Below are positions 57,887 through 60,703 of a stretch of DNA of 64,000 nt, in pieces. The stretch covers positions 1 to 64,000 of the forward strand of contig NZ_GL883811.1 in NCBI RefSeq assembly GCF_000205165.1, in the 5' to 3' direction. A program made the translations under genes and the position numbers. Source of the stretch: Paraprevotella xylaniphila YIT 11841. Lineage in GTDB: Bacteria > Bacteroidota > Bacteroidia > Bacteroidales > Bacteroidaceae. Under the pieces are notes generated by a model. It was given only the letters and a program-made list of their open reading frames with translations, was not told the DNA's origin and did not search any database. How positions within the stretch are numbered: position 1 is the stretch's first letter; each line of letters opens with the position of its first letter.

Positions 57887-58645
57887 TTAGAAGTTATATC
57901 CTAATTTGACCATAAACTTGCTGGTTTTGGTCTTTTCCGTGATTTCATTGAAATCGAGAGCATAACCGATGCCCACGTTGAACTTGCTGATGTCGAGTGT
58001 GGCTCCGATTTGCCATCCGAACTGCACACGGTTCCATTTCCAGTCGTCGGAACCATACAATTCGTTTACGTCGTCTTTGTCGAACAAGTTATAGCTTTCG
58101 TCGTATTCGTAATCGCTTCTGTCAATGTAGTCTTCAAACTCTGATGGAATATTAAGAGTGAATTCTTCCTTTTCTTTTGCCATTAGATTTACACGCAGAT
58201 AGAAACCCGTGTAAGGCTTGATGGCCAACTGTTCGTTGATTTTTACGCCATAGACTAAATTTATGGGTATGTTCAAGCCTAATTGTGTGATAGAATTCTT
58301 GGATTCATATCCGACTGTATAGCCATAATATTCATCTGATTCGCTTTCACTGTCGCTATGGCGTGAGAAGTTGATTCCTATACCGGTTTGGATGAACAAG
58401 GGCAATTTCTTAGCGACTTTAAAAGCATGTTCGTAATCTACGGAGAATCCATTCATATCCAAGTCATCGGGGTCGTCGAAGTCTTGGTTGATGAATACGC
58501 GGTCATACGAGAACCGCAAACCTTTCCAAGCCTCTACGTCAGAAGATGATGAAGCTGATGAACCGCTGCCGTTCATGAACTGTGCGAAAGACATTGTAGA
58601 GCAACCCAACAACATCGCGGTCAATAAACACTTAAACTTTTTCAT
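57887..58645 (-). CDS. Outer-membrane beta-barrel protein, unknown function
   Basis: 252 residues with a signal peptide (cleavage after FAQ, ~22), a Ser-rich linker (GSGSSASSSSD) and strand-rich body with repeated hydrophobic alternation ending in an aromatic (MVKLGYNF), as in small OMP_b-brl proteins. An unusually acidic loop (about 150-215, many Asp/Glu/Tyr) stands out. Second gene after the TolB-like gene (40-base gap) and probably on one transcript with it, therefore under the putative invertible promoter. Function unknown. Confidence 0.72.
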   Translation of the reverse strand: MKKFKCLLTAMLLGCSTMSFAQFMNGSGSSASSSSDVEAWKGLRFSYDRVFINQDFDDPDDLDMNGFSVDYEHAFKVAKKLPLFIQTGIGINFSRHSDSESESDEYYGYTVGYESKNSITQLGLNIPINLVYGVKINEQLAIKPYTGFYLRVNLMAKEKEEFTLNIPSEFEDYIDRSDYEYDESYNLFDKDDVNELYGSDDWKWNRVQFGWQIGATLDISKFNVGIGYALDFNEITEKTKTSKFMVKLGYNF

Positions 58646-58685: not shown

Positions 58686-59672
58686 CTAATAGTTGAATGT
58701 CATACGCCAGATGTTGGCTTTGGCTTCTTTGTTTCCACGTTGCGACACAAAGTAGATGTAGTGTCCGTCCTTGCTCCACACCGGGCTGAGGTCGTCTGCG
58801 GCATGGTAGGTGAGTTGGGCAAATCCCGTTCCGTCCAGACGCGACACGAACAAGTCGGTATTGTAGTAAGAAAAAGAGCCGGTTTCTATTTTACTGCTTC
58901 CCACGAACAACAACCATTGTCCGTCCGGTGAGATGGAAGGAGAGGTGAAGTCGCGATCGGGTTGCGAGACGATGCATTCCTCCACTCCAGTCTCGTAGTT
59001 GACCTTCCATATCTCGCTGTGTCCCGCAGCATTGGGGCGCACGCAGATGAATGCCGGTTCGCCTTTGACGGGGTAGGGGTTCAGGCCTTGGGAGTAGTTG
59101 GCTAAGAAGTTGTTTTTCATGTCATGGCTCCATATGCTGATGCTTTTGTTTTCCTGTCGGGCAAAGAATATCAAATTCATGTTCGCCGAATAAATCGGGG
59201 AATAGTCCATGTTGCCGGTTGTGATTTGGCGGCATACGAAACCCTTGTTGGCAGACGTTTGGAATATCTGGTTGGTCTTCCCGCGAGCCTCGGAGAACAC
59301 GATTTGCTTACCGTCGGGTGAATAAGAAAAGTCCAATACGGCAGTACGGTTGGTTTTCTGGATGGAAGAACCTTGTTTACTCAAATCTTTAATGAAGATA
59401 TTGGTCGTGTTGTTACGGAAAGACAGGTAGGCAATCTGGCTTCCGTCTGTGGAAATATCCAGAATGCGGTTGGAGAACCAACCGATGCCTCGGTTGCTTC
59501 GTTTGACTTCCGGCATGCACACATAATCTGTGGTCTGGGAAATTTGGGTGAAATCGGTTCCCGATTCTTCCGGAACAGACACCACCGAGTAGTCTACGCT
59601 TTGAGCCATAATTGATTCACAAGCTAAAGCGAGTAGAAAAAACATGCTATAAGGTTGTATTCCGAATCTCAT
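58686..59672 (-). CDS. Secreted TolB-like WD40/PD40 propeller protein
   Basis: 328 residues. Signal peptide ends at about IMAQ (24). Repeated PD40 blades: LDISTDGSQIAYLSF, FSYSPDGKQIVFSE, SPSISPDGQWLLFVGSS, LSPVWSKDGHYIYFVSQ. Such propellers bind proteins or glycans in the periplasm; the TolB N-terminal domain is missing, so it is not TolB itself. It has no good promoter in the 30 bases between its ATG and the inverted repeat. If the adjacent segment flipped, a strong promoter would start about 55 bases ahead of this ATG. Confidence 0.8.
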   Translation of the reverse strand: MRFGIQPYSMFFLLALACESIMAQSVDYSVVSVPEESGTDFTQISQTTDYVCMPEVKRSNRGIGWFSNRILDISTDGSQIAYLSFRNNTTNIFIKDLSKQGSSIQKTNRTAVLDFSYSPDGKQIVFSEARGKTNQIFQTSANKGFVCRQITTGNMDYSPIYSANMNLIFFARQENKSISIWSHDMKNNFLANYSQGLNPYPVKGEPAFICVRPNAAGHSEIWKVNYETGVEECIVSQPDRDFTSPSISPDGQWLLFVGSSKIETGSFSYYNTDLFVSRLDGTGFAQLTYHAADDLSPVWSKDGHYIYFVSQRGNKEAKANIWRMTFNY

Positions 59673-59702: not shown

Positions 59703-59896
59703 TATCTCTTCATAAGAGAGCAATTGTGTGGCGTTTCATCTTGTTATATAGTATGATAGCCTTCTTGAAAAGACGGTTTCTCTTAACTTTCTCAACATTT
59801 TGTGCACATAATTTGTATTTTATCGGAAGATAATTTTGCGTTATACAATCTTTTGAATATTTTTGCATTAAATAGTTGCTCTCTTATGAAGAGATA
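59703..59896. repeat. Putative invertible promoter segment (phase switch)
   Basis: Perfect 21-bp inverted repeats at 59703-59723 and 59876-59896 enclose 152 bases. Each repeat itself contains the near-palindrome CTCTTCATAAGAG. The enclosed DNA is AT-rich and has no gene, but has a complete consensus promoter facing right. This matches the design of invertible promoters that Bacteroidota use for phase variation of surface structures. No invertase gene is in the window, and inversion is not shown by one sequence. Confidence 0.75.
59835..59865 (+). promoter_or_regulatory. Promoter inside the invertible segment
   Basis: TTTG (59835-59838), 19-base spacer, TATTTTTG (59858-59865), start about 59872, four bases before the right repeat. 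In this orientation it points at the barrel gene 210 bases away; inverted it would point at the TolB-like operon. Confidence 0.72.
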
Positions 59897-60027: not shown

Positions 60028-60035
60028 TATATTTG
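60028..60035 (+). promoter_or_regulatory. -7 box nearer the barrel gene
   Basis: TATATTTG about 50 bases before the ATG. This would give the gene at 60086 a promoter independent of the invertible one. Confidence 0.5.
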
Positions 60036-60085: not shown

Positions 60086-60703
60086 ATGAAAAAAATCTTT
60101 TTAATGTTGGTAGCAGCTTTCATGGTGGGGGCAGCTACGATGAATGCACAAGTGAAAGGTGGAGAATTCATCTTGCGTGGTGGTTTTGCGGCTAATAATT
60201 TCAAAGGGGACAATACCGCAGGGTTGGACATGTTGCCGAGCTACAATATTAGCTTGGATTATAACAAGAACTTTTATAAAGGTGCTTATTGGAATGTGGG
60301 CTTGATGTTTGGTACGCGTGGTTTTGAGGCCGACCACTCTGATATGAAATTTCGGGCACATAATTTCAATATCCCGGTAACCATTGGTTATAAGTACAAT
60401 TTGACAAACAACTTTGCCATTGACGGACGTTTCGGTGCTTTCTTCGGTGTTGATATGGGAGGCAAGATTAAATGGGACGTTGATGATGATTGGGAACATT
60501 GGGAAGAATTCGTGGATGATGAAATTAAGATTGGTGACATTGATGATTACAACCGTTGTGACGGAGGTATCTTGTTGGGCTTAGGCGTATGGTATAAACG
60601 TGTTAACTTTGAATACACCTTCAAGCGTGGTTTCGGAGAAGCGTGGGATGACGGCCCGGCCGGTGCGGTAAACCATATGATTCGTTTGGGTTACGCATTC
60701 TGA
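60086..60703 (+). CDS. Outer-membrane beta-barrel protein (porin-like small barrel)
   Basis: 205 residues. Signal peptide ends after NAQ (about 21). The body alternates hydrophobic strands and ends MIRLGYAF with a terminal aromatic; a very acidic and aromatic loop lies at about 130-155 (WDVDDDWEHWEEFVDDE). It resembles the barrel gene at 57887 in size and style, with low obvious identity. Separated from the divergent TolB-like gene by the invertible segment. Function unknown; a structural or adhesion role would be a guess. Confidence 0.78.
   Translation: MKKIFLMLVAAFMVGAATMNAQVKGGEFILRGGFAANNFKGDNTAGLDMLPSYNISLDYNKNFYKGAYWNVGLMFGTRGFEADHSDMKFRAHNFNIPVTIGYKYNLTNNFAIDGRFGAFFGVDMGGKIKWDVDDDWEHWEEFVDDEIKIGDIDDYNRCDGGILLGLGVWYKRVNFEYTFKRGFGEAWDDGPAGAVNHMIRLGYAF

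Follow-up and report, generated by a model that had tools for sequence, protein, structure and literature searches.

A probable phase-variable promoter of a TolB-like/beta-barrel operon in Paraprevotella, one of twelve same-core inverted-repeat pairs and probably served by an unlinked tyrosine recombinase

Our results suggest, with high confidence, that a 194-bp segment between two divergent genes of Paraprevotella is a phase-variable promoter (inverton) of an operon encoding a TolB-like protein and an outer-membrane beta-barrel protein, and that it is probably flipped by a tyrosine recombinase encoded elsewhere in the genome, most likely on contig C8, which would serve all 12 repeat pairs with the same core. 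The promoter-inverton reading was first put forward in an initial annotation of the window, by which we mean the whole 64-kb stretch of DNA that was analysed; it is supported by the 12 same-core pairs, by inversion at three of eight comparable loci and by assembly-gap signatures at three of the 12. Promoter invertons are already known, and what is most interesting here is the clean genome-wide set of sites together with an unlinked enzyme. The features of the focal locus, and the candidate enzyme, are listed in Table 1; the genome to which the window belongs (G000) is a 3.79-Mb assembly in 87 contigs.

Table 1. Features of the focal locus (window coordinates) and the candidate recombinase.
Feature	Position	Strand	Remarks
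Left arm, TATCTCTTCATAAGAGAGCAA	59703..59723	+	core TCTCTT-CAT-AAGAGA at 59705-59719
Right arm, perfect reverse complement	59876..59896	-	core at 59880-59894, centre ATG on +
Invertible segment, 194 bp including arms	59703..59896	.	between divergent genes
Bacteroidota-type promoter, TTTG-N19-TATTTTTG	59835..59865	+	now faces right; predicted OFF for left operon
Second -7-like box, TAATTTTG	59831..59838	+	27 bases upstream of first; double-box architecture
TolB-like PD40 beta-propeller protein, 328 aa, first gene of switched operon	58686..59672	-	Pfam PF07676, 77.1 bits
Outer-membrane beta-barrel protein (OMP_b-brl_2), 252 aa, second gene	57887..58645	-	Pfam PF13568, 32.3 bits
Right-hand outer-membrane beta-barrel protein, 205 aa	60086..60703	+	Pfam PF13568/PF13505
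Lone -7 box, TATATTTG	60028..60035	+	outside repeats, before right-hand gene; also in G013
Candidate recombinase B, 401 aa	G000:C8:18642-19844		PF00589, 29.8 bits (cut-off 27.1)

The two perfect 21-bp inverted repeats, 152 bases apart, that the initial annotation had reported are present, and the window contains no other perfect inverted repeat of 15 bp or longer with arms spaced 50 to 1,000 bp apart. A chance origin is ruled out by 50 first-order Markov resamples of the whole window, which gave 2 k-mer matches in total. Each arm is itself palindromic; the dyad CTCTTCATAAGAG had been proposed as the recombinase core, and the palindrome stands, but the core is longer and its three middle bases are specific to the pair. 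The complete promoter placed just inside the right repeat was found where it had been described, and no second promoter faces left, with zero leftward TAnnTTTG boxes between 59501 and 60200. Inverted repeats around a short intergenic segment, and a TTTG / TAnnTTTG promoter within it facing one side, are features of Bacteroidota promoter invertons. After inversion in silico the -7 box occupies 59734-59741 on the minus strand, at a distance of 62 bases from the TolB-like ATG (59672); if 7 bases are assumed between the -7 box and the start, transcription would begin about 55 bases before the TolB-like gene, in agreement with the distance first suggested. No match was found in a search of phage records with the focal locus.

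The segment is one of a set. The pattern TCTCTT-NNN-AAGAGA occurs at 26 exact sites in the genome, compared with 1 for a reversed-pattern control (29 versus 9 when one mismatch is allowed). Three of the 26 are duplicates across assembly gaps, and the other 23, together with an arm that has one mismatch, make up 12 inverted pairs; no exact N3 core in the genome was left unpaired in this search for the repeat at other promoters, which the initial annotation had recommended. A core with six middle bases, at C33:9745, is unpaired. The 12 segments are 179 to 231 bp long. A TAnnTTTG box is present in 11 of them (mean of 3.2 and maximum of 8 in 1000 dinucleotide shuffles), the C15 segment being without a consensus -7 box, and TTG-N17-22-TAnnTTTG is found in seven (mean of 0.56 and maximum of 4 in shuffles). 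Genes near the pairs encode a hybrid two-component regulator, glycosyltransferases of families 11, 90 and 8, two NusG-domain proteins (which we take to be UpxY-like), LRR proteins, a BACON/M6 protein, DUF3575, AsnA and the TolB-like operon, while some have no Pfam match. On one contig (L136:5389-7194, G000:C75) two invertons, with centres CCC and CGT, lie about 1.6 kb apart, each just before one of two consecutive genes.

The centre of the core is specific to each pair. Among 58 distinct pairs (12 from this genome, 14 from its sister genome G013, 4 from G017, 2 from G010 and 26 from recombinase-linked loci), many of which are orthologs and hence non-independent, the central triplet is identical within all 58, compared with matches at 27-28% for single central bases between loci. 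Each site was used once for this count, with the duplicates L258, L266, L285, L286 and L302 and the false pairing L300 left out; the search pattern itself dictated bases -7 to -2 and +2 to +7, which are uninformative here. On the segment side, flanking bases +8 and +9 match within 47 and 46 of the 58 pairs (about 80%), as against 26 and 19 of 57 (33-46%) for the outer bases -8 and -9. The 12 loci of this genome have 10 distinct triplets, ACT and CCT each occurring at two loci; by our own estimate from 32 classes about 10 would be expected, and no avoidance of repeated triplets was seen within the genome. A core of this kind, odd-centred and with its middle specific to the pair, is consistent with a tyrosine recombinase that has an odd overlap; it does not fit serine invertases, which use a 2-bp overlap. 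The overlap may be 7 bp, by analogy with published repeats of the form GTTAC-N7-GTAAC (PMC12118408).

Other arrangements of the core were also seen. Two loci, G233:C2:108675-108898 (L236) and L229, have three cores each, of which two stand in tandem on the same side, separated by 20-23 bp with no N-run between; in B. fragilis, IVp-I is likewise reported to have several repeats before its genes (PMC4747536). Three genomes of another family (f75) of the same phylum, G378, G538 and G394, hold 32, 27 and 22 core copies, and multi-site systems may, to judge from these counts, occur far outside the family of the window.

The initial annotation had suggested comparing strains; comparison with a sister species provided evidence of inversion at other loci of the set. 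Flanks and segment could be compared between this genome and G013 at eight of the 12 loci: the orientation of the segment with respect to its flanks is opposite at three (C23, C79 and C87b) and the same at the other five, the focal locus among these. For the C23 locus, short segment matches (50-66 bases) place G017 in the opposite orientation and G010 in the same orientation as G000. Assembly gaps are also concentrated at these sites. In 297,991 bases of G000 sequence (26 stretches) there are only three N-runs, each of 10, and all are at inverton arms; the repeated stretch flanking the gap is 15 bases at C23, 29 at C32 and 22 at C87b, and the inverted repeats there measure 15, 31 and 22. A de Bruijn assembler would be expected to leave such gaps where both orientations were present in the sample. 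In G002, three contigs (C19, C21 and C25) end exactly 62 bases from a core, the C21 end being the TolB-like locus, and these ends may share the same mixed-orientation cause.

The enzyme is probably not local. The initial annotation had advised looking for an adjacent invertase, and this candidate had to be rejected: none of the 19 PF00589 matches and 1 PF00239 match shares a contig with an exact N3 site. The likely flipper is instead an unlinked tyrosine recombinase of about 400 aa acting genome-wide, relatives of which adjoin such cores elsewhere. Candidate B has the phage-integrase catalytic domain expected of the enzymes of Tsr invertons, and R240, K276, R349, H372 and Y381, presumably the catalytic residues of a tyrosine recombinase, are invariant in 13 sequences. 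In a family sample of relatives, an exact core follows the recombinase stop codon at 11 of 30 fetched loci (11-36 bases past it at 10 of these; L219 has a mismatch in the near arm). In named genomes, 68 of 80 loci had enough flank, and an exact core was found at 35 of these, TCTC-N7-GAGA at 13 more and neither at 20; the two locus sets overlap, with at least 13 loci common to both. Six Paraprevotella orthologs form one supported clade, and no local core pair was found at any of the six, nor at the four Paraprevotella loci of the named-genome set, three of which are the same records. Many deep forks of the tree are unresolved, and the linked group nearest to the Paraprevotella enzymes is not discernible from it. 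One further locus (L333) is on a contig labelled as a Lachnospiraceae MAG, and its recombinase, which is accompanied by a TCTCTTAATAAGAGA pair, is of the Bacteroidales type; the contig is probably misbinned, possibly transferred.

Relatives of the enzyme are commoner in genomes with many sites. A relative at E<=1e-60 is present in 20 of 22 genomes with at least four sites versus 53 of 179 others (Fisher p 3e-8, the genomes not being independent). Within Paraprevotella, the six genomes with an ortholog (at least 69% identity) hold 8-28 sites, and the six others that are in both tables hold 0, 0, 0, 1, 4 and 6. No relative above 52% identity was found in G016 (6 sites) or G008 (4 sites), and none at E<=1e-60 in G043 or G112 (4 sites each); some sites can therefore be explained by other enzymes or by chance.

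In the mechanism that we propose, the tyrosine recombinase would bind both arms of each palindromic core (TCTC ... GAGA), cut around the 7-bp centre (TTNNNAA) and swap strands between two cores, and the segment would flip because the cores are inverted. A promoter facing left would turn the TolB-like operon ON, whereas a promoter facing right, as here, would leave it OFF. One enzyme, most likely candidate B, would serve all 12 pairs, with the matched middle triplets within a pair favouring exchange within a locus over exchange between loci.

It is rather unlikely that the promoter is flipped by another enzyme, of which three are encoded in the same genome: an Mpi-family serine recombinase (C66:69885) and the tyrosine paralogs A (C85:3343) and C (C63:150583). 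The serine enzyme (L094:4661-5314) scores 349 bits against the NCBIfam Mpi model (NF009949), but the odd-centred core is at variance with a 2-bp serine overlap. Mpi is a known global promoter invertase (PMC4747536); its sites, however, are reported as ARACGTTCGTN (PMC8375218), which is not how the arms of the focal repeats read. The serine homolog was rejected on these two grounds, core and site, and both paralogs were rejected because other repeats lie beside them or their orthologs. Beside paralog C, 28 bp past its stop codon, lies a separate local inverton (L098:4802-5001), with 24-bp arms and the core TCTCCTAATATGAGA (TCTC-N7-GAGA), an arrangement also found in G013 (L201). For paralog A, different local repeats were seen at its orthologs in G013, G017 and G002 and none at A itself, which is on a 4.7-kb contig. 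The exact core, by contrast, adjoins relatives of B in many genomes.

The direction of the switch can be judged from relatives. Of 18 Paraprevotella genomes, 10 have a match to the TolB-like protein at E<=1e-60; since the match in G006 (47% identity) and a second copy in G005 (42%) are distant, nine genomes have a close ortholog. In G005, G008, G010 and G017 the TolB-like gene is faced by a double -7 box, whose two boxes are 27 bases apart and of which the second has TTTG-N19, whereas in G000 and G013 the same architecture points away from it. In G017 the double box lies within an inverton with a 20-bp repeat, 79 to 268 bases upstream of the gene; no TCTC-N7-GAGA core was found in the 420 bases upstream of the gene in G005, G008 and G010. 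Local alignment of the 300 upstream bases scored higher against the flipped segment than against the unflipped segment for G008 (34 versus 18; shuffle maximum, 27), G017 (30 versus 19; only just above the shuffle maximum of 29) and G010 (24 versus 17; below the shuffle maximum of 28 and alone not significant). The scores for G005 were 26 and 17, without shuffles, and G016 scored lower against the flipped segment (17) than against the segment as it stands (20). The likeness to these distant relatives spans 35-37 alignable bases. In G009 and G016 just one -7-like box is directed at the TolB-like gene, and the G002 locus has one core and then the contig end. The prediction that the TolB-like operon is now OFF is supported, because a like double-box promoter faces the operon in four relatives. 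What is apparently one promoter would be fixed in some species and an ON or OFF switch in others.

A switch mainly for the right-hand barrel gene at 60086, ON at present, or one serving both genes alternately, is distinctly unlikely. The promoter now faces this gene with no gene between; against this stand the gene's own -7 box, which lies outside the repeats and is retained in G013, and the similar promoter directed at the TolB-like gene in the four relatives. No TTTG was found at the usual distance from this lone box, which is a candidate for the gene's own promoter. Because the right-hand gene probably has its own promoter, the switch is mainly one of the left operon, and the right-hand gene is probably not the main target.

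A relic, formerly invertible and now locked OFF, is very unlikely. The segment has the same orientation in both genomes with the focal inverton, G000 and G013 (a 149-column alignment of internal bases 13-160, 85% identical), and no assembly gap was seen at the focal locus within the window; because of this, we infer flipping at this locus from the promoter likeness with more distant relatives. However, the arms and the centre are perfect in both species despite differences in the surrounding DNA, the reading frame of the presumed enzyme is open and its G013 counterpart shares 95% identity, and other loci of the set show inversion. That the repeats are operator or terminator-like palindromes which never recombine is scarcely credible: each arm is a palindrome, as many operators are, but every exact N3 site is paired, the centres are pair-specific and inversions and assembly gaps occur at the same core.

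The preferred reading, an inverton flipped by candidate B, would place surface genes of a gut genus under the control of 12 or more phase switches, probably with a single master enzyme, and it supplies both a recognition core and an enzyme as testable candidates. We would give even chances to a further proposal, in which the sites are orthogonal: one unlinked tyrosine recombinase would act on a dozen promoters with the same arms, a three-base overlap address would confine exchange to one locus, and the Paraprevotella enzyme, without the local inverton that many of its relatives carry, would now be a genome-wide master switch. As triplets are reused within the genome, isolation between loci would be partial. 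The pair-specific centres offer a direct test of whether a natural invertase separates many promoters by overlap identity, and for engineering they provide candidates for orthogonal sites.

Invertons have been surveyed on a large scale (PMC11892184). A search of the running text of the literature did not turn up the core, which may already stand in a published logo. Nothing on the core site was found in PMC5903667, and the occurrences of AAGAGA in PMC12691588 are sequencing adapters. Among the matches listed, only PMC8748976 names Paraprevotella (P. xylaniphila, class 2, in a table). The IP-ARG invertible promoters of Bacteroidales described there have the same promoter consensus and lie just downstream of an invertase gene; these systems are local and on mobile elements, whereas the probable Paraprevotella enzyme is unlinked.

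Other parallels are found in the promoters of capsule loci and in the global systems of Bacteroides. The CPS promoters of B. xylanisolvens (GTTACTTCTTAGGTAACGGA) and P. distasonis (GCTACTYRGNRAGTAGC) likewise have palindromic arms around a 7-base centre, with an integrase or invertase upstream, but their arms differ in bases from the TCTC-TTNNNAA-GAGA of Paraprevotella (PMC12118408). The Mpi regulon of B. fragilis is also one of a single master enzyme and about a dozen surface-locus promoters (13 regions; PMC4747536). Mpi, however, is a serine enzyme with a different site (PMC8375218), whereas the odd-centred TCTCTT-NNN-AAGAGA described here is tied to tyrosine recombinases. Tsr19/BF2766 and Tsr0667 of Bacteroides fragilis are tyrosine recombinases that invert promoter or shufflon segments of surface genes, both nearby and at a distance (PMC4747536), as the Paraprevotella candidate would do. 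The repeats reported for the tyrosine systems of B. fragilis and B. thetaiotaomicron share GTTAC-GTAAC (PMC12118408) where those described here share TCTC-GAGA, and Tsr19 adjoins one of its promoters, whereas the Paraprevotella enzyme has no local pair.
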